Positions 5,350 to 52,649 of a DNA stretch of 64,000 nt are shown here, piece after piece. How positions within the stretch are numbered: the stretch's first letter is position 1; each line of letters starts with the position of its first letter. The stretch comes from Bacteroidales bacterium (GTDB lineage Bacteria > Bacteroidota > Bacteroidia > Bacteroidales > F082). The stretch lies in contig JACFNF010000001.1 of assembly GCA_019454985.1 (NCBI GenBank), positions 1 through 64,000 of the forward strand. The letters run 5' to 3'. The notes under the pieces are model-generated. The model was given only the letters and a program-made list of their open reading frames with translations, did not search any database and was not told the origin of the DNA. The position numbers were made by a program, and so were the translations under genes.

Positions 5350-5370
5350 CCCAAACCTGCAGATGAGCTT

Positions 5371-7449: not shown

Positions 7450-7493
7450 CATTTTAATTAAGAAAATCAATAAACTTACACATACCCGGAACC

Positions 7494-9098: not shown

Positions 9099-9142
9099 TC
9101 CCGTCCTCTGCGAAGGCAAACCCATAATAAACCAGAAAAAAC

Positions 9143-10642
9143 ATGATGAACGAGCTATCTAACTTTTCCGGCGAGCTGCTGCAAAGTCTGAGCCTCTTCT
9201 GGCCCGAGACCACGCTGGTGATCACATTCCTGATTACCCTGTTTGCCGACCTGCTCAGCCGCCACAAAAACCGTTTGGCAGGCTATATTACCTTAGCCGG
9301 ACTCATCGTTACCGGACTGTTGCTTCTGAGTCAGCAAGGCGTTGCGCAGACCACCTTTTCGGGGCTGCTCACCGTTGACCCGTTCAGCTTCTTCATGCGG
9401 GTAACCATCCTGCTGAGCGCCATCCTCGTTGTACTGTTTTCATTTTCATCCAAAGAACTCGTTGAGGGACCTTTTCGTCTGGGCGAATATTATATGCTCA
9501 TCACAGGCTTGGTGTTCGGCATGTTTCTGCTCTCCGGTGCTTCCAACCTGATCTTCATCTACCTCTCGATCGAGGTGATGAGCATCAGCTCCTACATCCT
9601 GAGCGGCTATACGAAACACTCCAAGCGTGCCTCCGAAGCCTCGATGAAATATGTGATTTACGGTGCCGTATCCTCGGGTATCATGGTGTATGGGATGACC
9701 ATGATGTTTGGCCTTACCGGAACACTCAACCTGAACGAAATCGGCATGGCTCTTCAGACGAAGCCCGTTCAAACCATGCCGCTGCTGTTAGCCAACCTGA
9801 TGATTTTGGTAGGTTTCAGCTATAAAATTTCGGCCGTACCTTTCCATTATTGGACACCCGATGTATATGAAGGTGCTCCTATCACTGTTACAGCTCTGCT
9901 TTCGGTGGCCAGCAAAGCGGCAGGTTTTGCCGTGATCTTGCGTTATTTCCACAGTGCCCTCACCAATGGTGGCGAGTTGTGGCAGGTCATCGGCCAGATT
10001 GACTGGCATTTTGTGATTTCGGTGCTGGCCGTACTCACCATGACCGTGGGCAACCTTGTGGCACTGTGGCAGAACAATATGAAACGCATGTTGGCCTATT
10101 CGAGCATTGCCCATGCAGGCTATCTGCTGATGGCCGTGGCCGTGCTGAACAACACAGGAATGGCCGCCGTGCTCATCTATTTCTTTATCTATATGCTGAT
10201 GAACCTCGGCGCGTTTTATATCGTGCAGTTGGTAGCCGACAAAACCGGCTCGGAAGATATGGAAGATTATGTTGGTCTGGGTTATCGCAGCCCGCTCATT
10301 GGTGTGGCCCTCACCCTTTTCTTAGTCTCGCTCACCGGCTTGCCCCCAACGGCAGGATTCATCGGCAAGCTGTATGTGTTTACCGCTGTCGTCAAAGCTG
10401 GCTATGTGTGGTTAGCCATCATCGGTGTGCTCAATAGTGTGGTGTCACTTTATTACTATGTGCGGGTGGTGCGCAATATGTATCTGCGCGATGTGGAAAG
10501 CCAAGGCGAAAAAATCGTCTTCAGCCGTCCGGTGCTGACGCTTGTTCTGCTATTGGCCATCCCAACGCTTATCCTCGGCCTCTATTTCGGCCCACTGGCC
10601 GACTGGGCTTCGGCTTCGATGGCATTTGTGACCGGACATTGA
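9143..10642 (+). CDS. nuoN: NADH-quinone oxidoreductase subunit N
   Basis: Third antiporter-like subunit and last gene of the operon. The 499-aa product has about 14 hydrophobic segments. It contains LSIEVMSISSYILSGY, with the conserved acidic residue, and VPFHYWTPDVYEGAPITVTA, the NuoN version of the family signature, plus KRMLAYSSIAHAGYLLM. Two ATG codons stand in tandem at 9143 and 9146; either could be used. No convincing terminator follows directly; the first clear one is at 10888. Confidence 0.96.
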   Translation: MMNELSNFSGELLQSLSLFWPETTLVITFLITLFADLLSRHKNRLAGYITLAGLIVTGLLLLSQQGVAQTTFSGLLTVDPFSFFMRVTILLSAILVVLFSFSSKELVEGPFRLGEYYMLITGLVFGMFLLSGASNLIFIYLSIEVMSISSYILSGYTKHSKRASEASMKYVIYGAVSSGIMVYGMTMMFGLTGTLNLNEIGMALQTKPVQTMPLLLANLMILVGFSYKISAVPFHYWTPDVYEGAPITVTALLSVASKAAGFAVILRYFHSALTNGGELWQVIGQIDWHFVISVLAVLTMTVGNLVALWQNNMKRMLAYSSIAHAGYLLMAVAVLNNTGMAAVLIYFFIYMLMNLGAFYIVQLVADKTGSEDMEDYVGLGYRSPLIGVALTLFLVSLTGLPPTAGFIGKLYVFTAVVKAGYVWLAIIGVLNSVVSLYYYVRVVRNMYLRDVESQGEKIVFSRPVLTLVLLLAIPTLILGLYFGPLADWASASMAFVTGH

Positions 10643-13153: not shown

Positions 13154-13202
13154 TGATGTTTCGAAAAACAAAGATGTGTGAAACATTAAACCAGAGCATG
13201 AT

Positions 13203-16200: not shown

Positions 16201-16454
16201 TCGAAAACTCGTGGATAAAGATGCGCGAAGTGGCTCTGACCTATACCCTTCCGCCATCGCTGCTGAAAAAAGTAACTTTCGTGCGACAGCTCTCGCTCAA
16301 CCTCGTGGGTCGCGACCTGTTTTATCTCTACACCACTCTTCCTGACAAAGTGAACCCCGAAGGAGCCAACGGAGCCGGTAATGCTCAAGGCCTCGAATGG
16401 GGCGCTTTCCCAAGTTTCAGATCGTTCACCTTTGGCGCCAATATCCAACTCTGA
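13203..16454 (+). CDS. SusC/RagA-family TonB-dependent outer-membrane receptor
   Basis: Outer-membrane beta-barrel that imports a ligand captured by its SusD partner, driven by TonB. The 1083-aa product starts with a signal peptide (hydrophobic to about residue 20). A carboxypeptidase-regulatory-like domain follows (about 22-100, with ISGRVTSSEDQSAIPGVTV), then a TonB-box-like DEVVVTALG, the plug domain (about 115-235, with the SusC signatures PLIVVDGIPMEN and DILKGPAASALYGSRGANGV) and the barrel, ending in an aromatic-rich FRSFTFGANIQL. The susD gene starts 11 bp after its stop. The downstream PNGase F-like gene hints at glycans or glycopeptides as ligand; this is inference. Confidence 0.95.
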   Translation: MSRFTGFLFFFLLIQATVFGQQYGISGRVTSSEDQSAIPGVTVKIKGKPVGTTTDIDGHYSLTANRGDVLVFSYIGYASREAVVSSPAKIDMILSPADRQLDEVVVTALGLRRQKREVGYTVESVQAKEIQLSNADNLASALSGRSAGVQVINANGVDGGTTRFVIRGVRNLNDRNHNQPLIVVDGIPMENEPGLTDIGRGVDWGSALNNINSFDIESVDILKGPAASALYGSRGANGVVMITTRRGSRQGGIGITYNLTHKFTQPYRYREVQNIYGAGGPLSFLEPAFQLNAEGEPMYPADIYSDFGPLGEHTATTFGYYGSAVSWGPEMKGQMIRWWDGQMRPYSPQPDNLRLFFRDAVSTTHNIAFSGGGEMGSLRVSLTNTSHDASIPNSNFKQTTINLGSNLRISEKVTSDISISYMDYYRHNSPTIGESENSFGKAMLYSWPRSYKGIEKEHYANANGSMVDYRSNSPFYYIDKNFWWGVYNNNTNLSRKKLIGTVALTYQLTPWLSAMGRFGLDNTYNEFETRNRPIDSLGLVGGYYGHSMGRDQVTNGEFLFVAQKENFFNSGIDFKFSAGGNAWSRTQYGLSAHSGTWTQAWVYALNNAERPEQRGISEGRYEKKINSLYALMNLGWRNYLFMELTGRQDWSSTLPPYSNSYFYPSVSFSFLPSEAFRFNQPWLSQWRLRGAYALTAIDTDPYKLDFVYGAGSFGGDKTSSLPYTIPPYSLEPQFSASWEAGTIIGLLDDRIDLNFTYYFIRSYNQIMNSPLPVSSGAGQITINTGELQNKGMELIINTIPIHNKKLTVEAGLNFTRNRNKVVSLGEAAEIYEIANIWGGNGPAIAVKPGQDFGTIVGWDYVYHPDNGQPILNDAGTHYLMTEGRVPIGNASPDFLAGFTTRWRWKGFMLSTLIDCKWGGDIYSGSYVTAMHTGQSPSTLVERQGGGLPYTDPEGNVRNVGVILPGVYADGTPNDKVVHYYFKYMPNFGGWGKFLSKPGILENSWIKMREVALTYTLPPSLLKKVTFVRQLSLNLVGRDLFYLYTTLPDKVNPEGANGAGNAQGLEWGAFPSFRSFTFGANIQL

Positions 16455-16465
16455 TTCTCTGAGCC

Positions 16466-18070
16466 ATGAAAAAGATCCTCTTTCCCCTGCTGCTGACCAT
16501 CATCGCGCTGCTCCCCATAGCCTGCGACAAAGGTTTTGGCGAGCTCAACAAAAACCCTTTCGACTCCATTGAAACCGATATCGGACCTTTGTTCAACAAG
16601 GTAACCGCCTCCTTGGTGCAAGGCTGGAACGAACAGTTTTATATCAACAACGAAGTCCTTTACCGGCAAACCGAACTGGGAGCGCTTACCCAATATGCCT
16701 GGCCCAACGTCAATATCGGCGCCGAAGAAATCTGGTCGAACTATTATACCACTCTGGCGGTCATCCGCGACCTTGAAAAACGTTTTGAAACCTATCAGGG
16801 AAGTCAGGATGAGTTGGTAAATGCCAAGGCCATGCTCTATATCCTGTTGGCCGTGAAGACTTTCAAGGTGACCGACCTGTTTGGCGACATTCCCTTTTTC
16901 AATGCCGGCCGTGGCTTCGAGTCACTGGAATACGCCCGTCCGGCCTTCGATTCACAGAAAGACATCTATCTTTATCTGCTCGACAAGCTTCAATGGGCCG
17001 ATGAAAACATCAATGCCGTCTCAAGCCCGCAAACCCCGGCCGGTGTTCCGTTATACAGCCTGGCAGCCTACGACAACCTATTTAATGGCGACATGATGAA
17101 ATGGCGGCGCTTTGCCAACTCGCTCCGGCTGCGCTATGCCTTGCGTATGTCGAACCGTTTGCCCGAAGAGGCCGGCCAGATCATCTCCGAAATTGTCAAT
17201 GGCAACAAGCCCATCCTTACCGGAACGGGTAACGATGTGGTGATGTCGCCGTTGGCGCAAGGCTGGGAAAACAACGCCGTCAACTGGTCGTTTCGCGAGC
17301 ACGGTAAGCTCCGCATGGGCGAGACCATCTGGCAATGGCTCAGCAACAATGATGCAACTGATGGTAGCGGTATCTTCGATCCAAGGGCATACATATTTTT
17401 CGAAACCAATAATGCCGACGAATGGAAGGCCTTCCCGCAAACACTGACGCCCGAAACCCCTACCGAAGGCGGTGTGCCATACAACCTCCATCGCGACAAC
17501 AGTTACAACGTCAAAGGCTCGGCCTGCATCTATTCGCCGTTTAACTACTACCTGATCAGGGAAGAGAAGACCATCCCCGAAATCCTGATGACAGTGTCCG
17601 AGGTGAAATTCATCCTTTCCGAAGCCTATTTCAGGGGCATCGGCGTTGCGCCTGACCAGAGCATGGCACAGGGTCTTTATGCCGAAGGCATGGTAGCCTC
17701 GATGACGTATTGGCAAAATATCGTCAAAAATACCGCACGTTGGGTGAACCACCAGCCCTTTCTGGGTGAATGGGATTTTTATGCCGTGCTGGCCAATCCG
17801 AAAACTGACATTTTCAGTGCTTCGTCCGAACAGCAGTTGCGTATGATCTATGCCCAACGCTGGCTCGATGCGTTCAGGCAGCCTGCCGAAGCCTTTGCCC
17901 TTGCCCGCCGAACCTTAGCAACACCCCGCACTGGCACCCCGCTGAGCTATTTCAGATTGCCCTATCCCGATTCGGAATCGCTCAACAACCACGAAAACTG
18001 GGCCAGTCAGGTTGAGAAAATGGGCGGCGCCGATGAGTCGGGAGTAAAAATCTGGTGGATGGAACCTTAA
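16466..18070 (+). CDS. SusD/RagB-family outer-membrane lipoprotein (SusD-like_2 type)
   Basis: Surface lipoprotein that forms the lid of the SusC transporter and binds the nutrient. The 534-aa product has a signal peptide with lipobox LPIAC (Cys about residue 20). An early NKNPF(D) motif, a helical TPR-like body (for example ILLAVKTFKVTDLFGDIPF) and a C-terminal RRTLATPRTGTPLSYFRLPY segment fit the SusD-like_2 branch (PF12771) rather than classical SusD. It sits between susC and the T9SS-secreted PNGase-like gene. The pair is the uptake half of a probable utilisation locus. Confidence 0.93.
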   Translation: MKKILFPLLLTIIALLPIACDKGFGELNKNPFDSIETDIGPLFNKVTASLVQGWNEQFYINNEVLYRQTELGALTQYAWPNVNIGAEEIWSNYYTTLAVIRDLEKRFETYQGSQDELVNAKAMLYILLAVKTFKVTDLFGDIPFFNAGRGFESLEYARPAFDSQKDIYLYLLDKLQWADENINAVSSPQTPAGVPLYSLAAYDNLFNGDMMKWRRFANSLRLRYALRMSNRLPEEAGQIISEIVNGNKPILTGTGNDVVMSPLAQGWENNAVNWSFREHGKLRMGETIWQWLSNNDATDGSGIFDPRAYIFFETNNADEWKAFPQTLTPETPTEGGVPYNLHRDNSYNVKGSACIYSPFNYYLIREEKTIPEILMTVSEVKFILSEAYFRGIGVAPDQSMAQGLYAEGMVASMTYWQNIVKNTARWVNHQPFLGEWDFYAVLANPKTDIFSASSEQQLRMIYAQRWLDAFRQPAEAFALARRTLATPRTGTPLSYFRLPYPDSESLNNHENWASQVEKMGGADESGVKIWWMEP

Positions 18071-18129
18071 ACCATTTGTAAAATGCGATTGAACAACAAA
18101 AACATCAATAATTCTAAAAATAAAACATC

Positions 18130-20628
18130 ATGAAAAAGATCACTTTACATCTTTTATTTTTACTGGCGGCCTTTGTTGTGCAGGCTCAAACCGTTTCGGT
18201 TTACGACTTCAACACCTTACCCGACGGTAATTTAAACAACCAGGACGGCTGGAAGACCATCCAGCAGACCGCCTCCGGCTCGCCCGACTTCGTGATTGGC
18301 TATACGGCCGACGGAGTGGTGTCGCCCGATGGCAGCAAAGCAGTTTTCTATCCGTTTGGCGGGCCCGGTGTCGGACGTACAGCCACACGCAAATCATCGC
18401 CCAACTTCGAGTTTAGTTTTGCCGACGGCCTTGTGGAAGTAGAGGTAGATATGCACAAAAATTGGTGGGGTGTGTTCTTTGGTGTAGGTTATGATGCTGA
18501 TGGCGACGGCCATATTGCCCCCGGTCTTCCTACCGAGCCCAACGACGGCGGCATCCGGCTATTTTGCCGCGATGTGCCTCCGGCCTTGAACCAGGTTGTA
18601 TTGCCCAACGGCACCGAAATCCCTTTCACGGCCAACAATGACGGATGGACACGCTATAAGCTTGTCATGGACTTCACAGCCAATGGCGGTGCCGGAACTC
18701 TCGCCCTGTTCTATAAGCCCGGCGCCGTTGGCGAATGGATGCCGGCCAGCGAGGTACAAGGCGTCAGCATGCAGCTCACCCCGGGTTCAGGCGATAAGAA
18801 CGACAACACCAAATGGGATGGAATATTTTTCCATTCACAAGGCGGAACAGGCGCTTTCGACAATATCTTGGTGCGCCAGCCCGATCTTTCAGGTTTATAC
18901 CAGTTTATCAATTTCCCGGCCATCTCCAACAAGTTGACCACCGCAAACCCATTTGAGCTGGAAGCTACGGCAAGTTCGGGTCTTCCTGTACAATACAGCA
19001 TCGTGGAAGGTCCGGCCACAATCAGCGGCAACGTCCTGAGTCTTACCGGGCAAGCCGGCATAGTGAAGGTGAAGGCATCACAGCCCGGTAACGATGTGTA
19101 TGCTCCGGCAAACGATATCATCAACGAGTTTGAAGTGGTGGATGCCTCGGCCTATTTTGCCAGCCTGAAAGTACGGCGACCCTCCAACCTCACCAAAGTC
19201 TATATGCAAAGCCTTGCCCCTGTGATGTTTTTAGCCGAAACCCATGTGGAACATCCCGAGGTGCTGAGTGTGAACACTGTGGAGTTTATCATCAACGGAG
19301 TCCATCTGCCATTGATTGACAACGGAAACGGCTTCTATTCCACAAAATGGACACCGCCAGCCTTTGGCAATTATTCCATGACCGTGAAAAGCACCATCAC
19401 CGAAGGCAATGTCACAACCCAAACGGTTGATTTTGAGGTGACAAACATAGTGAGCAACCTTCAGGTACAGACTTTTGCCGGTGAAACCGTAACGCCCAAC
19501 AATCAGATTGTTACAGGAACATTTATCTTCCCAACATATGTTGGCAGTTTCAACAACATTAATTCGGTGTTAACGGTGAGTTGTCCTCCGGGAGGCTGCG
19601 ACCCCTATGACCGTGTTTCGCACGTTGAAGTGAAAGACCCCAATGGAAACTGGATCGAGATCTATCGCTATATCACTCCTTTCGGCGTGGGTTGCTCCGA
19701 TCAGGTGGACGTCACCGACTACGCTTCATTACTTCAGGGCGAGGTGGATATGCGCTATCATTGTATTCTATGGGATAAAGGGTTGAATATCAATATTCTT
19801 TACGAATTCACCGCCGGGACGCCCGCCTATTCCTATTCGTCAGTGACACCTATCTGGCGCGATGAATACCCGTTTGGCAACATGAGCAATCTTCAGCCTG
19901 TACCGCCGGCCTTTTTTACTTTCCCTGAAAATGTGCAGGCCGCCCGCCTGAAAGTGATTACCACAGGACACAACTGGGGCGAAAACAACACAGGCAATGC
20001 CGCTGAGTTTTACCATGCTACCCACTACATCAGGGTGAACAATGTGCGCGTTCACACCCAGGATTTATGGTCGATATGCAATCCAAATCCGGCCGGATGT
20101 CAGCCACAAAACGGCACCTGGGTCTATCCGCGTGCCGGATGGTGCCCGGGTTCCATCAGTAAAATTTTCGATTTCGACATGAGCCAGTACGTCAATGTAC
20201 CCAATTTCAAAATGGAGTATGAATTTGACCCCAACTACAAAGACCTATGCAGCTCCGCCAATCCCGATTGCGTTTCGGGTGTAACCTGTCCGAACTGCGA
20301 AGATACCTTCAACCCCCTGCTCTTTGTAAGTGCCCATATCATCTCTTATAGCAACAACATCCTGGTTAACTCGCCCGAACGCCAGGCCTCCAACGTGCGC
20401 ATTATCCCAAATCCGGCCAGTGGCTCGTTCCGTCTTCTGGCCGTCAATGTTCAGGGGACTGAAGGCTCGGGAGTGGAGATTCTGAATCAGGCAGGGAAAG
20501 TGGTTGAAGCATGCCTATGGGACGGTCAGGAAAAAACTTTCGACATCCGCCATTTGAAAGCCGGACTGTATTTCGTGAAAATCGTAAGTCCTGCAGGTAC
20601 TGAGCTGAAAAAACTATTGGTATATTAA
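18130..20628 (+). CDS. Secreted PNGase F-like protein with T9SS sorting domain
   Basis: Predicted amidase that would cut N-linked glycans from asparagine. The 832-aa product has a signal peptide ending AQA/Q at about residue 20. A jelly-roll/LamG-like domain spans about 23-255, with a calcium-loop-like DADGDGH at 122-128. Two Ig-like segments follow (about 258-338 and 340-440), then two domains matching PNGase F (about 445-745) and a T9SS type A tail (about 755-832, IPNPASGSFR through to KKLLVY). Compared from memory with the Elizabethkingia enzyme, Asp494 in CDPYDR matches catalytic Asp60, Glu626 in AAEFYHATHYI matches Glu206, and RAGWCPG at 668-674 is conserved. The position of Glu118 appears to be Ile546, so activity may differ. 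It follows susD by 59 bp. Confidence 0.85.
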   Translation: MKKITLHLLFLLAAFVVQAQTVSVYDFNTLPDGNLNNQDGWKTIQQTASGSPDFVIGYTADGVVSPDGSKAVFYPFGGPGVGRTATRKSSPNFEFSFADGLVEVEVDMHKNWWGVFFGVGYDADGDGHIAPGLPTEPNDGGIRLFCRDVPPALNQVVLPNGTEIPFTANNDGWTRYKLVMDFTANGGAGTLALFYKPGAVGEWMPASEVQGVSMQLTPGSGDKNDNTKWDGIFFHSQGGTGAFDNILVRQPDLSGLYQFINFPAISNKLTTANPFELEATASSGLPVQYSIVEGPATISGNVLSLTGQAGIVKVKASQPGNDVYAPANDIINEFEVVDASAYFASLKVRRPSNLTKVYMQSLAPVMFLAETHVEHPEVLSVNTVEFIINGVHLPLIDNGNGFYSTKWTPPAFGNYSMTVKSTITEGNVTTQTVDFEVTNIVSNLQVQTFAGETVTPNNQIVTGTFIFPTYVGSFNNINSVLTVSCPPGGCDPYDRVSHVEVKDPNGNWIEIYRYITPFGVGCSDQVDVTDYASLLQGEVDMRYHCILWDKGLNINILYEFTAGTPAYSYSSVTPIWRDEYPFGNMSNLQPVPPAFFTFPENVQAARLKVITTGHNWGENNTGNAAEFYHATHYIRVNNVRVHTQDLWSICNPNPAGCQPQNGTWVYPRAGWCPGSISKIFDFDMSQYVNVPNFKMEYEFDPNYKDLCSSANPDCVSGVTCPNCEDTFNPLLFVSAHIISYSNNILVNSPERQASNVRIIPNPASGSFRLLAVNVQGTEGSGVEILNQAGKVVEACLWDGQEKTFDIRHLKAGLYFVKIVSPAGTELKKLLVY

Positions 20629-22125: not shown

Positions 22126-22288
22126 ACTGAATCCGGCCGTTCGGGGGAAAAGCATCTCCAATTCGTACATCTAAGAAGTTTGAGACTTCAGGTGTGCGAC
22201 ACATATATATGGCTCCCCTATTCGCCCATCGGCCCTATGAGGCATTTCAAAAAAAGCTATCCATCTTTATCATATCCAGCTTCTTTCA

Positions 22289-22296
22289 TATATTTG
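22289..22296 (+). promoter_or_regulatory. -7 box of icmF
   Basis: TATATTTG matches TAnnTTTG, 20 bp before the icmF ATG at 22316. No clear -33 box. Confidence 0.45.
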
Positions 22297-22315
22297 TTTT
22301 TTTATCCTGACTCTT

Positions 22316-25300
22316 ATGACACAGCAAGCCTCAACCATCTACAAACCCCTGCATCATTTGCGAATCGTAACAGCGGCATCGCTTTTCGACGGACACGATG
22401 CCTCCATCAATATTATGCGGCGCATCATCCAGTCGGGTGGAGCCGAAGTGATTCATCTCGGTCACAACCGCTCGGTTCACGAAATTGTGAACACGGCCAT
22501 TCAGGAGGATGTACAGGCCATTGCCATCACCTCGTATCAGGGCGGCCATCTTGAATATTTCAAATACATGTACGATCTTTTGCAGGAGGCGGGTTGCGGA
22601 CATATCCGCATTTTTGGCGGAGGCGGCGGCGTCATCCTTCCTGCCGAAGCTGAGGAGTTGCACGCCTACGGCATTGCCCGCATCTTTTCGCCCGATGATG
22701 GCCGCTCGATGGGGTTGCAAGGCATGATCAACGAATTACTGAAAAAATCTGATTTCCCCACCGGTGCATCCGTCACCGACGACCTTGACAAGCTCAGCCC
22801 GCGCAACCATCGCTTGATCGGCCAACTAATCTCGGCTGCCGAAAACTATCCCGAGACATCGGCTCCTTTGATGGAGAAGTTGCGCCAAAAAATCGTAAAA
22901 AAAGCTCCGGTGCTCGGCATCACCGGCACCGGCGGAGCCGGCAAGTCGAGTCTGGTGGATGAGATTGTGCGGCGTTTCCTACACGACCAGCCCGATAAGA
23001 TGCTGGGCATCATCTCGGTTGACCCCTCCAAACGTCGTAGCGGAGGTGCGTTGCTGGGCGACCGCATCCGCATGAACGCCATTGATCATCCCCATGTGTA
23101 TATGCGCTCACTGGCCACACGGCAGTCCAACTTAGCTATGTCGAAATATGTCCGCGATGCCGAAGCCATCCTGCAGGCCGCCGGCTTCGACCTTATCCTG
23201 CTCGAAACTTCCGGCATTGGCCAAAGCGACACCGAGATTATTGACCACAGCGATATCGCACTATATGTGATGACACCCGAATATGGAGCAGCCACCCAGC
23301 TCGAAAAAATTGACATGCTCGACTTTGCCGACCTCATTGCGCTGAACAAGTTCGACAAACGAGGTGCCGCCGATGCGTTGAGGGATGTGAAGAAGCAATA
23401 TCAGCGCAACCACGGACGCTTTGCCGACGACCCTGCCACCATGCCTGTGTTTGGCACAGTAGCTTCGCAGTTCAACGACCCCGGCGTCAATGCCCTCTAT
23501 CTGGCCATTCTGCAAATACTCAACGAAAAAGCCGGCGCAGCTTTCACCCCTCATACAAAATTATTGGGTGAGGCACCGGAAAAGATCTCTATCATCCCTT
23601 CAAAACGGGTGCGTTATCTGAGCGAGATAGCCGAAACTGTTCGTGCCTACAACGGCTGGGCACAGAAACAGAGTCGGGCAGCCCAGCGTCTGCAAAGCCT
23701 GAGGCAGAGTCGTCAGCTCCTCTTAGAAGAATCTGATCAGGCCGACACTCAAACGCTCGACGAGCTCATCCGGCGCGAAGAACGACGGCTCGATCCACAG
23801 GTGGCCGACCTCATCGAAGGCTGGGAAGAGAAGAAAAAACGCTATAGCGACCCATGGTATATTTACCAGGTGAGAGACAAAGAAATCAGGGTGGCCACCC
23901 ATACCGAGAGTCTCTCGCGTCTTCAGATTCCAAAAGTAGCATTGCCGCCTTTCCGTGCCTGGGGCGAGATTGTCAGGTGGTCGTTGCTCGAGAATGTGCC
24001 GGGCGAGTTTCCTTTCGCGGCGGGCGTGTTCGACTTCAAACGTGAAGAAGAAGACCCGACCCGCATGTTTGCCGGTGAAGGAGGCCCCGAGCGTACCAAT
24101 CGCCGCTTCCATTATGTCTCGCGCGGCTTGGCCGCCAAACGGCTTTCAACCGCCTTCGACTCGGTGACCCTTTATGGCGAAGACCCACACCGACGACCCG
24201 ACATCTACGGCAAGATAGGCAATGCCGGCGTGTCAGTCGCCTGCCTCGACGATGCCAAAAAACTCTATTCCGGATTCAACCTCGCCGACAACAAAACCAG
24301 TGTCAGCATGACCATTAACGGGCCTGCACCAACCATGGTGGGCTATTTTATGAATGCCGCCATTGACCAGCAATGCGAGCTTTTTATCCGCAAAAACGGT
24401 CTCGAAAAGGAAACCCACGCCATCATTGACGAGATCTATCGCCAGAAAAGACTTCCCCGACCACGCTATCAAGGTCCATTACCTGAAGGGAACAACGGGC
24501 TGGGACTGATGCTCCTAGGTGTTACGGGCGACATGGTACTTCCAGCAGAGGTGTATGGCCGCATCAAAGCCGAAACCCTGCAAAAAGTGCGCGGTACCGT
24601 GCAGGCCGACATCCTGAAAGAAGATCAGGCGCAAAATACCTGTATCTTCTCGACCGACTTTGCCCTCAAACTCATGGGTGATGTCCAGGAATATTTTATC
24701 CGCCATCAGGTACGCAATTTTTATTCGGTTTCTATCTCGGGCTATCATATTGCAGAAGCCGGCGCCAACCCCATCAGTCAGCTTGCCTTTACGCTGGCCA
24801 ATGGCTTCACCTATGTGGAGTATTATCTCTCGCGAGGGATGCACATTGACGACTTTGCCCCCAACCTGAGTTTCTTTTTCTCCAACGGCATTGACCCCGA
24901 ATTTTCGGTCATTGGCCGTGTAGCCCGTCTGATATGGGCTAAAGCCATGAAGCTCAAATACAACGCCAACGAACGCTCACAGAAGCTCAAATACCATATC
25001 CAGACTTCCGGCCGCTCGTTGCACGCACAAGAGATTGATTTTAACGATATCCGCACCACTCTGCAAGCGCTTTATGCTATCTACGACAACTGCAACTCGC
25101 TGCACACCAATGCCTACGACGAAGCTATCACCACCCCGACGGAAGAAAGCGTTCGCAGGGCAATCGCCATCCAGATGATCATCAATCACGAACTGGGCTT
25201 GGCCAAAAACCAGAATCCGATGCAAGGCTCATTCATCATCGAAGAGCTTACCGCATTGGTTGAAGAAGCCGTGATGGCCGAGTTTGACCGCCTCACCGAG

Positions 25301-25690
25301 CGCGGGGGCGTGCTTGGTGCCATGGAAACCATGTATCAGCGCGGCAAAATACAGGAGGAGTCGCTCTATTACGAAACTTTGAAACACAGCGGAAAGCTTC
25401 CCATCATGGGCGTGAACACCTTTTTGAGCAGCAAAGGCTCGCCAACGGTAATTCCAGGCGAAGTTATCCGGGCTACCCCCGAAGAAAAAGAATACCAAAT
25501 TCAGATGCTGGAAAATCTGCATCAATGCTGGAAAGATGAAGCCGCCGACAAGCTCGCATCGCTGCGAAAAGCTGCTCTGAACAACGAAAATGTGTTCGAA
25601 GCCCTGATGGAAACATCAAAATACGCTTCCATAGGCCAAATCACACGATTGCTTTTTGAAGTTGGTGGGCAATACCGCCGCAATATGTAA
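22316..25690 (+). CDS. icmF: Fused isobutyryl-CoA mutase IcmF
   Basis: Adenosylcobalamin-dependent enzyme that interconverts isobutyryl-CoA and n-butyryl-CoA (some also isovaleryl/pivalyl-CoA), fused to its own G-protein chaperone. The 1124-aa product has the cobalamin-binding domain at about 14-140, with the DxHxxS/G-type base-off motif DGHDAS (His27). A MeaB-like GTPase domain follows at about 195-420, with P-loop [12 protein letters not shown] at 201-212, and the mutase barrel at about 540-1110 ([36 protein letters not shown]). This three-part order is diagnostic of IcmF; stand-alone methylmalonyl-CoA mutase has no central GTPase. It is a single-gene unit with its own -7 box. Confidence 0.95.
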
Positions 25691-37555: not shown

Positions 37556-37724
37556 GTCGGCCGTCATCTTAAAGACAGATGAATGCCCTTTTTTGAAAGA
37601 CAAATATCGGAATTGCAAAAATTTATGTGAGTTTGTGTGTATAACCAATTGATTTTGCTTAATTTTACATTCGGCAAAACTGCTGTTTTGGAATAGTTAA
37701 ATCAATTTCATATTCGCCCGGGTG

Positions 37725-40700
37725 ATGTCGGAACAAAATCAACACCTCAATTTACCCACATTGCTGCAAGTGATGGATTCATTGAACCACAAAGTGTTCG
37801 TGGTAGATCCGGAAGCTCGCATCGTTTATGCCAATGCTGCTTTTCGTACCATGCTGGGCAACGGATTTACTTTGTCGGAAGGTGATGTGATTCCACTCAG
37901 CGATGATCTGCCTGACTTCATAAAACGACTCGCTAAAAATGATTTCGGAGATGAATTGCCTCTTTCGTTTCAAACATCTTCAGGAACCATCACACTGATG
38001 ATGCACTTGAGCCCGCTTTCTGGCGAGAAACCTCTCTGGCTTTTTCAGGAACAAACACTGTTAAATAATTCATTGATACAGGAAGCCCTCACCCAGCGTG
38101 AAGTGCTTTTCAGGAGTTTCATCGAACAGAGCAACGACGGGATGGCCATCATTGATCCCGAAGGGAGACTGATTCTCTGGAATCACCGTCTGACCGAGTT
38201 TACCGGAATCAGTGCAGATGAAGCTCAGGGTCGGTTTGTTTGGGATGTTTATTTTCAGATGCTGCCTAAAAACCACCAGGCTATGTATCGTTCATCCGAT
38301 GAGGTGAAACCCCGGTTTGTCAATCTGTTGAAAAATCAAAACTCGCATCAGCTGGGGAATGTCACTGAATTTGAAATCATACGCAAAGATGGCGCCGTAA
38401 GGCTAATTTCGGCTATGATGTTTTCCATCGAGCTCAACGGACAACATATGCTGGGCATCATTCAGCGCGACATTACCGACATCAAGAAGTCAGAACTCGA
38501 ATTAATTGAAAATCAGGAATATATCCGCACCCTTTACAATGATTCCCCCATTCCGGTGCTTGTGATTGAGGAAAAAAGCCTTCAAATTTACACCCTGAAT
38601 AAAGCCGCTCTGAGGGCTTTCCGCTATACCGAACCAGATGAGATCATCGGTATTAACATCAAAGAACTGTTGCCATTACCCGATGAAGACAATTTGTATT
38701 TCAACCGTCAGCAAATTATCGAAAAGCTTGAACTTATCTCTAAGCCCGAATATCAAACCTTCGATTGTCATTTCCGCACCAGAGAAGGCAATATCTGGGA
38801 TGCGAAAATTTATCCTTTCAGGCTGCCCATCCACGACAACGACCTTATTCAGCTTACCCTGATTGACACTACGGCTCAAAACCAAGCCATAAAAGCTCTT
38901 TTCGAGAGTGAATCGCGTTATAGGGCGGTGGCCGAAAATGCCAATGCCGGAATCGTTATCGTTGACCTGGACGAACGCATCCTTTTCTCGAACGAAACTT
39001 TTGCCGGTATGTTGGATTATTCCAAAGACGAAATAATCGGGCAGCTGATCAGTCGTTATGTACCGGAAGACACCTATCATCTGATGGTCGAAAAAACACT
39101 CCGTCGTTTCAGTGGTGTGGTGGATCAATATGAAGCCGAGTTTTTTCATCGCAACGGGGATATCCTTACGTTATCCATATCAGCATCCCCGCTCTATTCC
39201 TCCGAAAAACAAATGGTGGGCACCGTTGGCGTGCTGATTGATATTACCGAGAAAAAATTAGCCACTCAAAAACTCCTCGAAACCACTGAGAAACTGCAAG
39301 CCATTCTTGCTTCGATGCCCGATATGATTTTTATCCACGATCGGGAAGGCAGATATCTCGACCTTTATATCAACCAAAAAATCTATACCGATATTGACCA
39401 TCAACCCAAGCCCGGACAAACGCTTAGCGATGTTTTTGGAGCTGAGCAGGCGAGCCGGATGAAAAAACATATCGAGAAATCCCTTGAAAAGTCGGAAACA
39501 GTCGTCGTACCATTTGATTTGTTAGTAAATGACAAAGTACGGTATTTCGAAGCCCGTATCAGCCCGATGGGCGAAGACAAGGTGATTTCGGTGGTGCGCG
39601 ACATCACCACCCTCATCCAGCTCGAAAACGAAGTGATGAGCAGCAACGACCTTCTGCGTGTGCTCAACGCCTTAGCCACACGTTTTATCAATCTTCCGCT
39701 CGACCAGATTGAACCCGAAATCAATCGGGCTATCGCCGAAATTGGCAATTTTACCGGTGTGGATCGGGTGTATATCTTTGATTATGACTGGGAAGAAGAC
39801 AGCATGTCAAACACTTATGATTGGTGTAGCGAGTATGCAGAGCCCGCCATAAACGAGCTTCAGCACCTACCCAACAGCCTTGTTCTGGAATGGGTTAAAT
39901 CACACCAATCAGGCGAGATGACCCGTGTGCCGAGCGTTGACGACCTACCCAAAGATGAGAACCTCTATCACATCCTCAAACCGCAGGGAATTCGCTCGCT
40001 CATCACCATCCCCCTTATGGAAGGAGACAAGTGTTTAGCCTACATCGGGTTCGACACCGTAAGAAAACACCATCAGTTTTCGGACAATGAGATTTCGCTA
40101 TTGCGCATTTTTGCCGAGCTGCTCACCAATCTGAAAATCAAGCAACGCACCGAAGGAATGTTAGTGCAAACAAAAGAAATCCTGCAAAAGCAAAACGACC
40201 AGTTGCTGAGCCTGAACAACCTGCTTCGTCGTCAAAACGAAGAAATTATCCAAAAGAACAGCGAATTGGACCTTCAGCGCGAAAGAGCCTTAGCGAGTGA
40301 TAAGCTGAAAACAGCCTTCCTGAATAATGTGAGCCACGAGCTCCGTACACCCCTCAACGGCATTGTAGGTTTTGCCCAGTTTCTGGCCGACGACAATCTC
40401 TCAGCCGAAGACAAAATGGAATTTGTGTCGGCCATGAACATCAGTGTTTCGCGCCTCACCGATACAGTAAATGATATCATGGATATGTCACTCCTCATGT
40501 CGGGCAATATGATCGTTCGTGATGAGGTGGTTGATATGCAAAAAATGGTTGCCGAGTTATATCGGAAATTTGATCCCGAAGCAAAATCCAAAAATCTCAG
40601 CCTTGAACTATCAGAAAAACCATTACCTGATACTGCTCAGTTTCATTCAGATTCCGGATTACTGAAAAAAGTATTCAATGAATTGATTGACAATGCAATA

Positions 40701-41402
40701 AAATATACACAAAAAGGATTTGTACGCTTTGGTTATGAGTTTTTGGGCAACGAACTGCGACTCTTTGTTGAAGACAGCGGAATCGGCATCTCGAGTGAGG
40801 CCAAACTCAAAGTGTTTGAGCCTTTCATGCAGGAAGACAACTCGAGTACCCGCAAATACGAAGGCAGTGGCTTAGGCTTAGCTATCGTGAGCGGCATCAC
40901 ACAATTGCTTAACGGACAAATCAATCTCGAAAGCACATATCCACACGGAACCCTTTTTTCGATCAATATACCATCTATGCTCCAATCACAACCAGAAACA
41001 AATCCAGCTACGCTTACTGAAGAAGCTACCGGCCCTTCGATTCTTATTGCCGAAGACGAAGTGCTTAATGTTCTGTATCTCAAGCGAATACTAAAAAATT
41101 CCGGCTTTAACTTAGTTTACGCTCAAAATGGCGAAGAAGCCGTTCGGATTGTTGATGAAGACCCCAATATCAAAATGGTTCTCATGGACATCAAGATGCC
41201 AGTAATGGATGGACTCGAAGCCACACGCATTATCCGTGCCAGCCACAGCAAACTGCCGATCATTGCAGTTACAGCCTATGCGGCCAACGACGACCGTTAT
41301 ACCTGCATTGCTGCCGGATGTAACGATTATATATCAAAACCATTCACCGCCGACGATCTGAAACATTTAGTCAAAAAATATTCGAATCTTTCCGAAAGCT
41401 AA
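37725..41402 (+). CDS. Hybrid sensor histidine kinase/response regulator with multiple PAS domains
   Basis: Cytosolic hybrid kinase, 1225 aa, with no transmembrane segment. In order: five PAS-like domains in about residues 10-635 (for example VFVVDPEARIVYANAAF, FIEQSNDGMAIIDPEGRLIL, VAENANAGIVIVDLDERILF, ILASMPDMIFIHDREGRY), a GAF domain (about 645-815), a coiled coil, HisKA with SHELRTPLNGIVGF (phospho-His about 870), HATPase (ELIDNAIKYT, GSGLGLAIVSGI) and a C-terminal receiver with the phospho-acceptor Asp1155 in VLMDIKMPVMDG. There is no DNA-binding output, so signalling probably ends at the receiver or passes to another protein. It is 170 bp after the efflux operon. A GTG at 37722 is one codon upstream of the chosen ATG. 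Confidence 0.93.
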   Translation: MSEQNQHLNLPTLLQVMDSLNHKVFVVDPEARIVYANAAFRTMLGNGFTLSEGDVIPLSDDLPDFIKRLAKNDFGDELPLSFQTSSGTITLMMHLSPLSGEKPLWLFQEQTLLNNSLIQEALTQREVLFRSFIEQSNDGMAIIDPEGRLILWNHRLTEFTGISADEAQGRFVWDVYFQMLPKNHQAMYRSSDEVKPRFVNLLKNQNSHQLGNVTEFEIIRKDGAVRLISAMMFSIELNGQHMLGIIQRDITDIKKSELELIENQEYIRTLYNDSPIPVLVIEEKSLQIYTLNKAALRAFRYTEPDEIIGINIKELLPLPDEDNLYFNRQQIIEKLELISKPEYQTFDCHFRTREGNIWDAKIYPFRLPIHDNDLIQLTLIDTTAQNQAIKALFESESRYRAVAENANAGIVIVDLDERILFSNETFAGMLDYSKDEIIGQLISRYVPEDTYHLMVEKTLRRFSGVVDQYEAEFFHRNGDILTLSISASPLYSSEKQMVGTVGVLIDITEKKLATQKLLETTEKLQAILASMPDMIFIHDREGRYLDLYINQKIYTDIDHQPKPGQTLSDVFGAEQASRMKKHIEKSLEKSETVVVPFDLLVNDKVRYFEARISPMGEDKVISVVRDITTLIQLENEVMSSNDLLRVLNALATRFINLPLDQIEPEINRAIAEIGNFTGVDRVYIFDYDWEEDSMSNTYDWCSEYAEPAINELQHLPNSLVLEWVKSHQSGEMTRVPSVDDLPKDENLYHILKPQGIRSLITIPLMEGDKCLAYIGFDTVRKHHQFSDNEISLLRIFAELLTNLKIKQRTEGMLVQTKEILQKQNDQLLSLNNLLRRQNEEIIQKNSELDLQRERALASDKLKTAFLNNVSHELRTPLNGIVGFAQFLADDNLSAEDKMEFVSAMNISVSRLTDTVNDIMDMSLLMSGNMIVRDEVVDMQKMVAELYRKFDPEAKSKNLSLELSEKPLPDTAQFHSDSGLLKKVFNELIDNAIKYTQKGFVRFGYEFLGNELRLFVEDSGIGISSEAKLKVFEPFMQEDNSSTRKYEGSGLGLAIVSGITQLLNGQINLESTYPHGTLFSINIPSMLQSQPETNPATLTEEATGPSILIAEDEVLNVLYLKRILKNSGFNLVYAQNGEEAVRIVDEDPNIKMVLMDIKMPVMDGLEATRIIRASHSKLPIIAVTAYAANDDRYTCIAAGCNDYISKPFTADDLKHLVKKYSNLSES

Positions 41403-41554: not shown

Positions 41555-42511
41555 ATGAGTCGTCCCGGTATTCTGTACCGTTTCCTTAAACTTTATGTTC
41601 CTTTCGGTTATCGGATGTATTATCATCGGTTTCGCTTACACCATGCAGAGCTTGTTCCGCAACATGGACCACTTATCTTGGCCATCAACCACCAAAATGC
41701 GTTCATGGATGCGCTTGCGGTAGCCATTGCCACAAAACGTAACCCCTGGTTTATTACACGTGCCGGAGTTTTCACGCATCCGGTGGCACGATATTGGCTT
41801 GGCCTGCTCCAGATGCTCCCCATCTATCGTTTCCGCGATGGGCATGCCCAAATGAAAAAAAATGATGAAGCCATGACTGCCTTCAGGCAACTTTTGGATC
41901 GGAACGAAGCCATTCTGATTTTCCCCGAAGGCAACCACAATCGCAACTGGAGTCTTCGTCCCCTTCAAAAAGGCATTGCCCGCTTAGCCTTTGGCTTCGA
42001 AACAGAAAATGACTGGAACTCTGGGCTGAAAATCGTTCCCATTGGCTTGCAGTACGAAGAGCATCTGCACAGTTATAGTGATTTATTGGTAAGCTTTGGC
42101 CAACCCATCGCCACGGCTGACTATCGCAGTATCTACGAACAAAATCCTGCAATTGCCATCAACCGCCTGCTCAACGAGCTTTCCGGACGGATGAAAAAGC
42201 TCATCATTCACCTTGAACCCGGGCCCGATTACCAGATCATGGCCACGAAGCTCAAACAGCGCCCTGGCCGTGAAACAGACCTCGTACAACGTCTGATTTC
42301 TGACCAGAAGATCATTTCCGAAATGGAGGCCGGGGTTTTTTCTGAGATGGCAGCCAAAACTGAAAGCAAAACCTCGCATTGTCTGCTTCTTTGGCCGTTG
42401 TTTGCTTCCCTCGTACTGCCACATCTGCCGCTTTTAGCGCTGTCAAAATTCATCGTAAAAAAGACGTACGTGACGACCATTGGACTTCTTCCATCACTTT
42501 TGGCACTATGA
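41555..42511 (+). CDS. 1-acyl-glycerol-3-phosphate acyltransferase-like protein (zero frame)
   Basis: PlsC-family acyltransferase of phospholipid or lipid A-like synthesis at the inner membrane. From the ATG at 41555 the zero-frame product is 318 aa. It has the acyltransferase motif H-x4-D in INHQNAFMDAL, the FPEGNHN block (motif III-like) and IVPIGLQYEE. The frame is open back to 41453 but that part is not protein-like, and a TAGCCTTG box at 41518 argues for the later start. At 42457-42463 the sequence A AAA AAG sits in phase. A shift of -1 there gives a 374-aa protein with a membrane-hairpin C terminus that ends exactly at the next gene's start. Either a homopolymer deletion/sequencing error or programmed frameshifting is possible. 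Confidence 0.8.
   Translation: MSRPGILYRFLKLYVPFGYRMYYHRFRLHHAELVPQHGPLILAINHQNAFMDALAVAIATKRNPWFITRAGVFTHPVARYWLGLLQMLPIYRFRDGHAQMKKNDEAMTAFRQLLDRNEAILIFPEGNHNRNWSLRPLQKGIARLAFGFETENDWNSGLKIVPIGLQYEEHLHSYSDLLVSFGQPIATADYRSIYEQNPAIAINRLLNELSGRMKKLIIHLEPGPDYQIMATKLKQRPGRETDLVQRLISDQKIISEMEAGVFSEMAAKTESKTSHCLLLWPLFASLVLPHLPLLALSKFIVKKTYVTTIGLLPSLLAL
42457..42463 (+). other. Slippery heptamer A AAA AAG (candidate -1 frameshift site)
   Basis: The zero frame reads GTA AAA AAG ACG, placing the heptamer in the canonical X XXY YYZ phase. Slipping back by one base leads into GAC GTA CGT, the frame of the conserved-looking extension. The same heptamer drives -1 frameshifting in E. coli dnaX. No strong downstream hairpin is obvious. 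Confidence 0.4.
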
Positions 42512-42678
42512 TTTTAGTAGGGCCATTGATTTATTTAGCAGAAATCTTGTTGGTGGGCTGTTTGACGTCGGGATGGCTTTGGGCGTTGTTATTTGCAGCA
42601 TGGCTCTGGCCTAGCGGCAGACTAAGTCTGATTTTTCGAAAATATTGCCTTTCAGAAAATGAAACTTTAGTTCAATGA
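42463..42678 (+). other. -1 frame C-terminal extension of the acyltransferase
   Basis: This segment codes for 71 residues in the -1 frame, from DVRDDHWTSSITFGTMILVG through two hydrophobic stretches to NETLVQ. Related Bacteroidota acyltransferases, as I remember them, end in a similar two-helix membrane hairpin. The stop codon TGA overlaps the ATG of the SMR gene (ATGA, 42675-42678), the typical arrangement for coupled genes. It is therefore probably the genuine end of the acyltransferase. Confidence 0.6.
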
Positions 42679-43001
42679 GTTGGATTATCCTTATCATCGC
42701 CGGTTTTTTTGAAGTTGGTTTTGCCGCCTGCCTGAGCAAAGCCCGCACAACTGCCTATCCCGTTGCTTTTTGGTGGTTTCTTGGTTTCTTAGTAAGCCTT
42801 ACGGTAAGCATGTATTTGCTTTACAAAGCCACCCAGCATCTGCCAATGGGCACAGCCTATGCCGTGTGGACGGGCATTGGTGCTGTAGGTACGGCAATTG
42901 TCGGAATCCTTTTGTTTGATGAACCAACCCATTTCTGGAGGTTGTTTTTTATTTTCACCCTTATTGCCTCCATCATTGGGCTTAAAGTAGTATCAGGCTG
43001 A
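42675..43001 (+). CDS. Small multidrug resistance (SMR) family transporter, SugE/Gdx-like
   Basis: Four-helix inner-membrane proton-coupled exporter, 108 aa. The catalytic Glu of helix 1 is in AGFFEVGFAACL (Glu13), and helix 3 carries MGTAYAVWTGIGAVGTAIVG, the SMR signature. The WTGIGAVG form is closer to SugE/Gdx (guanidinium exporters) than to EmrE, but the substrate is not certain, and I see no guanidine riboswitch upstream. Its ATG overlaps the end of the -1 frame extension of the acyltransferase gene. Confidence 0.88.
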   Translation: MSWIILIIAGFFEVGFAACLSKARTTAYPVAFWWFLGFLVSLTVSMYLLYKATQHLPMGTAYAVWTGIGAVGTAIVGILLFDEPTHFWRLFFIFTLIASIIGLKVVSG

Positions 43002-49159: not shown

Positions 49160-51577
49160 CTACCAGTCAATCGTCACACACTCCTGAGGCCGAAGGTCGA
49201 ACCAAAAAATGATTTCGTCACCAGAAACTTTTCGGTTTTTCGTTTCCCGACCATTGATCTGCACGCTGTTTCCTTTCATCGCCATACTCATCCCCTTGAT
49301 TGTGATCCTGGAAGGGTTGAACAATTCCAAAGAATGATCAGAAATTTTTTCCACGCGAATCTGCCGCAAACCCTCGTAGTGGCTCACTATCTGTTGCACG
49401 GTTGACGGCAAAACAAGACGTTTTTCCCGAAGTTGTTGGAGTGTTTTCAGTGCCCTGTTGAAACCGTCCATTGCCACCAGATTGCCATCAACATCACTTT
49501 TCCAATAACCTTTGCCTTCTTTCACCCAGGCCGGATAGATATGGGCAAAATAAACCGACCGGTTTTGGATAAGCTTCTCCATTCGTTTTGGTTGGAAAAG
49601 ATAATCCCACACCTCATCGGTGGGAGCTTCGAGGGTTCCGGTGGTGCCCCAGAGCATTGCTTCGGGAAATGACGGATGGCGGCAAACCATCGGAACGGGG
49701 AAAGCGTCGCCGAAACCAGGGTAGGGAATCATAAAATGTCCATCAAAAGCAAAGTCGTTCCATGGGCTGACCTCTTCGTACCAAGCATTCCACAGGTAAC
49801 GGATTCCGTGTTTTTTCCACAACCGACGAACTGCTACCGGCGATTGGGGATCAAGACCATCACAGCAAAGATTTTCGCGATTATTTTCGGCCTTATTGTT
49901 ATAGCCATGATCAATCCAGCTTACCGATCCAAATCGCAACTGCATATCCTTTAGTGCTCTGCGAAGCATGGCAGATGTCGAAGTAAACTGTTCAGGGGTA
50001 TGCAGGCAAAGTTCGTGACCTTTGTCATGAAGTTGCTGCATCAGGTTAGCAAATGCAGTATCGGTGGTAAGTGTAGCATGAAAACCCATAAAATGCCCGT
50101 TGCTGGCCTGGCTGTTGCGAATACCATCAGGATTGGCATAAAAGATACTCCGCGTCACCGGAATGTCATATCCGACAAAACCTCCTACCGCATCCGCAGG
50201 TCGAACAAGATTGCTTCTGCCGAAATTCACCGCCCGCTGAGTAGCAATATCAGTCCAGTCAGCATGTTCTGTCCACACAAAAGCAGCATCATAGCCATCG
50301 GGAATCCAAAGGATACGTGGAATATCATAGGATTCGAGACCAAAAAAGAACGAAAATGAGCCGCGGAAACATTGCTTTTTCTGAATGGTGGCTGCCGAAA
50401 GATCAACAAAATAGTCCGATGTGTCGGGAATCAGCGGATAATGCAACAAAGGATGGTCAGTGGCCAAATCGAGGTTCAGGAAAAGCTGACCTTTTTGGGT
50501 GTTGAGCTGGCTCGACGAAAGTTGTAAGCTGTTGTGCATCATCACACTGCGCTTATTTTCCCCGAAAACCACGCCTCCATTACGCAAATAATATTCAGGC
50601 TGGAAAGAATTGGTGTCCAACAATCCGCTTTGACGGATGACGGCATGAACCGAATCCAAAAAGCTTGTCACAAGACTGTTTCGCCAAAGGATAACAGGCC
50701 TTTTCGCAGTAGTTCTCACCTCACAACGAAGCTGATGATTGTTTGGTGAAATGACGATTTCCATCATGGCTGTCATTTCATCTATCCGGGCCTCAAAATG
50801 AAGTCGGGTTTGATGTCGGTGGCCAGACTTTTTTTTCAGCCTCCAGGCCTGAGTTTGCCGCCAAAGTGTACTATCCTCCTTCCTGCCCAATTCAACAATC
50901 CATGCTATTGGCCGACTGATGGGTGCGCCTGAACTGTCGGCTAACCTGAGCCATTGGTTTTCGGCTTGCCATTGCAGCTGAAAATTTTTTCCATAGGCTA
51001 ATGTGTGATATCTGCTGCTGTCATCGTCAATGGCGTCAAAGTCGGGCAAAAAGGATAGAGGCGAACTATGATGAACCGATATTTCAACGGAATCCACAAG
51101 GAATTCTGCAGCTTCCCTGTTCCAGATATATGCTTTGATCCGGATATCATGACTGAGATCGGCTGGCAGCTTAAAAGTATAGTGAAGCTTGTTCCATTGA
51201 GTCCGATGCCGTAGAAAATCATCGCATCGTACCCCTTGATACAAAACAAGTGTATCGGCACGCATTACGGTGATGACAAACAACGCACCTGTGGAAAGTT
51301 TCTCGCTTTTTATGAAAGCTGTGAGCTGCCAGTTTTGATTTATCCCCGCAAGTTCTTCTGGCACAGGGGCATTGATGTTCAGTGCAAATGTTTGATCGGC
51401 ACGGATAAGTCCGGCATATTTTCCTTGTGGCGAACTGCTATCGGCCACAGGGGTAAAATCCGTCCAAAACGTCTGAGCTTCATCCGGTTCAAATCCGATA
51501 AAATATCGCTGGGCATTTCCGGCTGACGAAAAAACCAAAAAGAAGAAAGCCAGCCAGAATAGCCTTTTTTTACTCAT
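49160..51577 (-). CDS. Secreted protein with a NodB-like (polysaccharide deacetylase-type) region
   Basis: I do not recognise a named family for the whole 805-aa product. From the ATG at 51577 it has a clear signal peptide (LFWLAFFFLVFSSAGNAQ). The first ~400 residues are beta-rich and look like carbohydrate-binding or sandwich domains. In the second half AAFVWTEHADWTDIATQRAV supplies an acidic/His pair and HDKGHELCLHTPEQFTS supplies a His-x-x-x-x-His-like block; these resemble NodB motifs 1 and 2. WIDHGYNN may be a later motif. No T9SS tail is seen; it ends RPQECVTIDW. The start overlaps the butyrate kinase stop by 8 bp, so the two are coupled. Deacetylase activity is inference. Confidence 0.65.
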   Translation of the reverse strand: MSKKRLFWLAFFFLVFSSAGNAQRYFIGFEPDEAQTFWTDFTPVADSSSPQGKYAGLIRADQTFALNINAPVPEELAGINQNWQLTAFIKSEKLSTGALFVITVMRADTLVLYQGVRCDDFLRHRTQWNKLHYTFKLPADLSHDIRIKAYIWNREAAEFLVDSVEISVHHSSPLSFLPDFDAIDDDSSRYHTLAYGKNFQLQWQAENQWLRLADSSGAPISRPIAWIVELGRKEDSTLWRQTQAWRLKKKSGHRHQTRLHFEARIDEMTAMMEIVISPNNHQLRCEVRTTAKRPVILWRNSLVTSFLDSVHAVIRQSGLLDTNSFQPEYYLRNGGVVFGENKRSVMMHNSLQLSSSQLNTQKGQLFLNLDLATDHPLLHYPLIPDTSDYFVDLSAATIQKKQCFRGSFSFFFGLESYDIPRILWIPDGYDAAFVWTEHADWTDIATQRAVNFGRSNLVRPADAVGGFVGYDIPVTRSIFYANPDGIRNSQASNGHFMGFHATLTTDTAFANLMQQLHDKGHELCLHTPEQFTSTSAMLRRALKDMQLRFGSVSWIDHGYNNKAENNRENLCCDGLDPQSPVAVRRLWKKHGIRYLWNAWYEEVSPWNDFAFDGHFMIPYPGFGDAFPVPMVCRHPSFPEAMLWGTTGTLEAPTDEVWDYLFQPKRMEKLIQNRSVYFAHIYPAWVKEGKGYWKSDVDGNLVAMDGFNRALKTLQQLREKRLVLPSTVQQIVSHYEGLRQIRVEKISDHSLELFNPSRITIKGMSMAMKGNSVQINGRETKNRKVSGDEIIFWFDLRPQECVTIDW

Positions 51578-52649
51578 ATTCAAGTACTTCCACCCCGCCA
51601 CGCAGCACAGCCAATCCGTGAGCAGCATGAGCGTCAAGGTCATTCACCGAAGGAAACAGAGCCATGGGAGCCAGCTTACCAACGCGTTTTTTCACATTTT
51701 CCAGAAACAACTCGCTATTAAAAATCTGTCCCGAAAGGATGATGGCATCCAACTCGCCTTCAAGGGTAGCATAATGGCTGGCAATCTCTTTGCTCACCTG
51801 ATAGGCACAAGCTTCGGAGATGAACAGCGCCTTGGGGTCTTTGTTGGCAATCATCTGATTGATCTGTTGGATGTTATCGGTTCCCAGATAAGCAGCATAT
51901 CCGCCTTTGATACTCACCATTTCGCGAATTTCCTGTTCGGAATATTTACCACTGAAGCACAGGTCAATAAGTTGACCTACAGGTAATGTTCCAGTTCGTG
52001 CAATTGAGAAAGGTCCGCCCCCGTCGTAAGCCTGATTCACATCAATCACACGGCCTTTGCAATGAGCGCCTACACTGATTCCCCCTAAACCCACGTGACA
52101 CACAATCAGATTGAGTTCATTGTAGTTGCGGTTAATACTTTTGGCATATTTCTGCGCAAAAAACTTATGGCTCAGGGCATGGAAGATCGAACGTCTGACA
52201 AAAAGCGGATGGCCCGTGATGCGTGCCAGATCAGACAGCTCGTCCACAACCACCGGATCGGCCATATAAGCATTCACCCCAATCATGGCTGCTAAGTCGA
52301 ACGAAATCAGCCCACCGAGATTGGTTTCACGCATCCCTTGTATCCCTTTCATCAGGTCTTCCACCATTCGGGTATTGACTTTATAGATTCCCGACTTCAA
52401 CGGTTTCACCAATCCACTGCGCGACATGATGATGTTCACCTTTTGGATATCGAAATCGTTGCGTTTGAGCTCTGCCAGAATGGCATCGCGGCGATATTCG
52501 CGCTGATCGGTAACTAAGCTGAAACGTTTTAGGTCCTCTTCGGGATGTTTGATGGCTTTCAGGAACATGGGTTCGGTATTGCGATATATGGCAATCCGTG
52601 TTGACCATTTCTCGGGATAAACGACTAAGATCTTTTTTTGGAGCGACAT
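51570..52649 (-). CDS. buk: Butyrate kinase
   Basis: Acetokinase-family enzyme that makes butyrate (or a branched homologue) and ATP from the acyl phosphate. The 359-aa product has the N-terminal phosphate-binding region (ILVVYPEKWSTRIAIY). ARITGHPLFVRRSIFHALSH is the family signature block, followed by IVCHVGLGGISVGAHCKGRV and SGQIFNSELFLENVKKRVG in the second lobe. The length is typical. The partner gene phosphate butyryltransferase (ptb) is not in the window, which is unusual because ptb-buk are often adjacent. Its end overlaps the NodB-like gene, and mannose-1-phosphate guanylyltransferase lies 45 bp upstream. Confidence 0.93.
   Translation of the reverse strand: MSLQKKILVVYPEKWSTRIAIYRNTEPMFLKAIKHPEEDLKRFSLVTDQREYRRDAILAELKRNDFDIQKVNIIMSRSGLVKPLKSGIYKVNTRMVEDLMKGIQGMRETNLGGLISFDLAAMIGVNAYMADPVVVDELSDLARITGHPLFVRRSIFHALSHKFFAQKYAKSINRNYNELNLIVCHVGLGGISVGAHCKGRVIDVNQAYDGGGPFSIARTGTLPVGQLIDLCFSGKYSEQEIREMVSIKGGYAAYLGTDNIQQINQMIANKDPKALFISEACAYQVSKEIASHYATLEGELDAIILSGQIFNSELFLENVKKRVGKLAPMALFPSVNDLDAHAAHGLAVLRGGVEVLEYE

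Follow-up and report, generated by a model that had tools for sequence, protein, structure and literature searches.

An in-phase A AAA AAG heptamer in a Bacteroidota acyltransferase gene is most likely the by-product of an ordinary one-base frameshift

Does a slippery heptamer near the 3' end of an acyltransferase gene direct programmed -1 ribosomal frameshifting, or is the gene one base short? The question is raised by a 64-kb stretch of DNA (the window) from a Bacteroidota bacterium with a 3.0-Mb genome. On the + strand, AAAAAAG occupies 42457-42463, and the zero-frame codons AAA (42458-42460) and AAG (42461-42463) set it as A AAA AAG, the X_XXY_YYZ phase of a slippery heptamer for -1 programmed ribosomal frameshifting. 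The zero frame runs from ATG 41555 to TGA 42509-42511 (318 aa), 15 codons past the heptamer, where the stop overlaps a -1-frame ATG as ATGA (42508-42511). Read from 42463, the -1 frame stays open for 71 codons, with two hydrophobic helices in the hydropathy profile, up to TGA 42676-42678, for a product of 374 aa. This TGA overlaps ATG 42675 of the next gene on the + strand, a 108-aa member of the small multidrug resistance (SMR) family (42675-43001; PF00893, E 7.8e-23). The initial annotation had reported the heptamer in phase at this place, together with the coordinates, both product lengths, the 71 codons and the TGA/ATG overlap, and the sequence bears out all of them. If translation ends at 42511, the SMR start loses its overlap with an upstream stop.

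The zero-frame product (41555-42511) matches PF01553 with a Pfam E-value of 6.5e-19 and 68.5 bits against a curated cut-off of 23, a match above cut-off that it has in common with the PlsC-like acyltransferases. It contains NHQNAFMD, within which lies what we take to be the H-x4-D acyltransferase motif. The profile of the acyltransferase subfamily had no PDB match at E 0.01. The genome holds four PF01553 matches in total, so other acyltransferases remain. When 61 genomes were searched with the 318-aa protein, strong matches came from seven genomes of the same genus and stopped at residues 302-305, although the ORFs there measure 365-395 aa; the eighth same-genus genome (G001, 84% complete) returned only a weak match, to another protein.

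The last 15 zero-frame codons (42464-42508) are foreign to the acyltransferase family. In the protein alignment, the -1 extension (42463-42678) is collinear with the C-termini of ten relatives, and the break falls without a gap. Six C-terminal residues that are invariant in these ten relatives are all kept (D307, H309, W310, S313, P324 and Y327 in the numbering of the 374-aa product). With tblastn restricted to the ortholog loci, ten orthologs matched the 71-residue extension, with E-values from 1.4e-20 to 9.0e-7; the remaining two of the 12, L088 and L089, stayed without a match at 1e-3. Additionally, a structure was predicted for the ortholog L032 (mean pLDDT 75; blocks from residue 301 onward 69-92), in which a helix at 271-303 just ahead of the break position is followed by helices at 307-337 and 340-362. 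By homology, the -1 extension is the genuine C-terminus of this acyltransferase subfamily, and the two-helix hairpin, as modelled, is real and belongs to the acyltransferase family. The initial annotation had described a conserved-looking extension with such a hairpin, and the homologous C-termini of the orthologs and the helices of the model agree with that description. Two other readings of the -1 frame were rejected. A chance open frame is ruled out by the homology of the extension to single-frame orthologs, and a separate downstream gene (42379-42675) had no Pfam or NCBIfam match at 0.001, its sequence being part of the acyltransferase in relatives.

A profile built from 11 orthologs served to search the 173 family genomes, among them that of the window; every match above about 170 bits is listed, and the window copy scores 443. 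Among the matches listed, the short-type protein occurs in 13 genomes, the window copy included. In all 12 other short-type orthologs listed, a single open frame carries the match to position 364-368 of the 369-position profile; the window copy alone stops at position 303. For G002, G005 and G008, the one stop listed inside the match is the gene's own terminal stop, and the length fits their ORFs. Eleven of the 12 recur in genome_contigs (L032-L042), each as a single ORF of 363-375 aa, in a scan that may omit records of the window's own genome. The extension is therefore present in 12/12 relatives; its absence from them had been named in the initial annotation as an observation that would refute its reading. 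A recurrent split in the family was also considered and rejected, as no other split short-type member appears among the matches listed and a split member should score far above 170 bits. The long-type member of G072, with an open frame of 246 aa, was not counted as a frameshift, since its short ORF goes with a contig end at 10005.

At the codons aligned with the heptamer, three of the 12 orthologs carry seven A's (L091, L095 and L096) and one carries eight (L094), all in frame; the other eight have interrupted A runs and are also read in a single frame. None of the 12 shows A AAA AAG in phase or a change of frame at the aligned site, so the conservation of the transition in relatives that would mark a programmed frameshift is missing here. 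The pattern of a frameshifted gene, with intact single-frame orthologs and collinear parts, is seen instead in 12/12, with no gap at the break. The initial annotation had proposed the A count in relatives as a check, with seven A's pointing to a simple error or mutation. This holds for the four orthologs with seven or eight A's in frame; it does not extend to the eight with interrupted runs, which keep one frame as well. An exact 26-base pattern taken just 3' of the A run had 0 matches in viral_contigs.

From these comparisons, the locus is very probably a PlsC-like acyltransferase gene of the ordinary kind, with an A run over two lysine codons that has one base too few for the reading frame. 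An ancestral form with seven A's would have lost one of them; we infer this run length, since eight of the 12 orthologs are without seven A's. After the loss, the reading frame would shift and run through 15 foreign residues to the stop at 42511, stranding the final pair of membrane helices in the -1 frame. The in-phase heptamer would then be a by-product of the loss, because xxA AAA AAA Gxx, once shortened by an A, invariably contains A AAA AAG in phase, and the heptamer's phase is thus not independent evidence. Since the same loss yields both the heptamer phase and the -1 extension, the two arise from one event. The warning in the initial annotation that a lost A gives the same picture is confirmed by this rule. 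Nor is the heptamer rare: the 19,502 codons of 42 other genes in the window contain seven in-phase copies of A AAA AAG, counted over intervals that mostly start at the preceding stop, so that a few copies may precede the true start; a second tally, stopping short of the gene ends, gave six.

The programmed reading assigns the heptamer a function: -1 frameshifting on A AAA AAG, programmed or corrective, or slippage on the transcript, would supply the 374-aa protein in useful amounts alongside the 318-aa product. The heptamer has the correct phase for this, and A AAA AAG is truly shift-prone in E. coli according to PMC4066793 and PMC5009743, the latter giving it as the dnaX shift site. PMC4066793 places A_AA.A_AA.G in a set whose shifting in E. 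coli exceeds 0.10% when no stimulator is present, and counts it among the three motifs that shift most efficiently once stimulators are added. A scan of the 31 nt up to and including the first base of the window heptamer found none of the SD-like motifs given in that paper. The 97 nt 3' of the heptamer fold at -17.1 kcal/mol against a shuffle mean of -19 (z +0.61, with this stability equalled or exceeded in 142 of 200 shuffles), in a pseudoknot-free folding model. For the 45-nt stretch starting 7 nt past the heptamer, 69% of 400 random window 45-mers were at least as stable, and the best local downstream fold reaches -13.1 kcal/mol over 60 nt. The upstream SD-like motif and downstream structure that would stimulate a programmed frameshift were therefore not found in the 31 nt scanned or among the pseudoknot-free folds. 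In this the site is unlike that of dnaX, which possesses both stimulators, and the relatives of the window gene are single-frame.

The likeness to the E. coli dnaX site (A_AAA_AAG; PMC5009743) lies in the identical heptamer and its phase. For transcript slippage, PMC3711429 gives A_n with n > 7, and the window run has n = 6. A literature search for programmed frameshifting in acyltransferases of Bacteroidetes turned up, among the records listed, nothing beyond the survey PMC3711429. With 0/12 orthologs sharing the heptamer or the transition, no SD-like stimulator or unusual downstream fold found, and a phase that follows automatically from the loss of one A, we consider frameshifting that yields useful amounts of the long product improbable. 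The proposal of programmed -1 frameshifting in the initial annotation is not supported, and nothing found favours it beyond what a base loss explains. Since the bare heptamer shifts slightly in E. coli (PMC4066793), some 374-aa protein could arise without programming.

An intact and conserved extension is also what a still-translated tail would show, and we compared its coding character and conservation with those of intact genes. Over 42463-42675, the codon-usage score is -0.08 per codon in the -1 frame and -1.09 (9 stops) and -0.49 (3 stops) in the others. Among 255 in-frame segments of 71 codons, whose minimum is -0.153 and 10th percentile 0.063, a value of -0.08 lies in the lowest tenth; among 510 wrong-frame segments it would stand in the top tenth (90th percentile -0.397, maximum 0.03). 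The score is coding-like in the -1 frame only, and weak for coding sequence. The G+C content is 0.43 in the extension and 0.49 in the first part. The relatives are distant, with 42-56% identity over residues 1-303. The C/N identity ratio between the window and relatives has a median of 0.80 (range 0.55-1.02, 10 pairs), and among the relatives 0.72 (range 0.54-1.15, 45 pairs), these pairs not being independent. By this measure, conservation of the extension is not relaxed and is as high as in intact relatives, so the loss is recent, an error, or compensated. A conserved, stop-free tail is compatible with a sequence error, with a mutation of recent date and with continued translation of the extension.

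Compensation could also come from translational coupling, in which ribosomes stop at TGA 42509-42511 and restart at ATG 42508, so that a 56-aa peptide with the helix pair joins the 318-aa part. The ATGA overlap (42508-42511) does place an ATG in the -1 frame. However, this ATG encodes a Met inherited from the interior of the intact protein, and the same codon with AT after it stands in seven of the 12 orthologs, which makes the overlap an inherited by-product and not a selected feature, and no other short-type member is split among the matches listed. We regard coupling as very unlikely. Phase variation, in which cells of one population would differ in A-run length and so have the C-terminus either on or off, is less credible still. 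The run is an intragenic homopolymer, with six A's in the window copy and seven or eight in four of the 12 orthologs, but it is interrupted in the other eight, and the + strand of the window holds 60 A6 and 37 T6 runs. Six A's are short for a hypermutable tract.

Under the preferred reading of a one-base loss, we give about an even chance to a recent true mutation and a chance clearly short of even to an error in the assembled sequence, both weights being judgements. If the mutation is true, the main product would be the 318-aa protein, with the catalytic domain kept and the C-terminal helix pair missing. The window gene resembles the singleton class of the GeneTack survey (PMC3711429): a homology-validated transition, unshared by relatives, in a homopolymer and near the 3' end. 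For frame transitions that homology validates but that fall in no cluster, the survey assumes errors or recent indels; its expectation for homology-validated singletons is error and not indel, but it judges a true indel more likely when the frameshift lies close to the 3' end. The split acyltransferase most likely belongs to this known class, as an ordinary one-base frameshift, true or sequencing-derived.

Beyond the acyltransferase gene, the 42 other genes of the 64-kb window were judged by coding frame. No other split gene was recognised among these 42, at a resolution at which small faults could escape, and Pfam gave a match at 0.001 in 41 of them, the exception being 49163-51643. The coding strands of the other genes hold 15 runs of A and 6 runs of T of at least seven bases, so long runs have not been shortened wholesale.

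Slippage rescue in the insect endosymbionts Buchnera and Blochmannia, as described in PMC5009743, likewise involves an A-run indel in a conserved gene. Compared with those cases, the window run is shorter (six), lies in a 3.0-Mb genome and shows no sign of rescue. It seems improbable that the species tolerates the loss by shifting back on A AAA AAG or restarting at ATGA 42508, and so makes the acyltransferase with and without its C-terminal helix pair. If true, the gene would carry a recently arisen site of corrective recoding in a bacterium with a 3.0-Mb genome, whereas most known cases of such correction come from mitochondria and endosymbionts.

The locus calls for caution in annotation, as an A-rich coding sequence minus one base mimics programmed frameshifting, with an in-phase heptamer and a conserved -1 extension. 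A claim of frameshifting must rest on a transition common to relatives, not on the heptamer. In the window genome, one gene model should carry the frameshifted label.

The neighbouring genes were also compared. Upstream lies a sensor kinase (37722-41402) with PAS, GAF, HisKA, HATPase and receiver domains by Pfam. Relatives of this kinase, at 47-59% identity, stand just upstream of the acyltransferase in five of 11 loci (L035, L037, L039, L041 and L042); matches were weaker in L033, L034, L036 and L038 (29-32%) and in L032 (23-27%), and L040 had no upstream sensor-kinase match. For the SMR gene, tblastn at 1e-3 found nothing beside the orthologs, in flanks of up to about 3 kb at these 11 loci and up to about 1.5 kb at 12 further records, and the acyltransferase/SMR junction may be particular to the species.

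Elsewhere in the window, the ORF at 49160-51643 (-) comprises 827 aa without a Pfam match at 0.001, and its best coding segment covers only 49193-50680. A complex I gene run (NADH:quinone oxidoreductase subunits) extends over 173-10642 (+) in one orientation. The single 1149-aa ORF at 22241-25690 (+) joins B12-binding, MeaB GTPase and methylmalonyl-CoA mutase domains, presumably the layout of an IcmF-type fused mutase. Finally, 13182-20628 (+) looks like a glycoprotein-use locus, where genes for a paired TonB-dependent receptor and SusD-like protein precede one for a secreted protein with a PNGase F C-terminal domain and a sorting tail.
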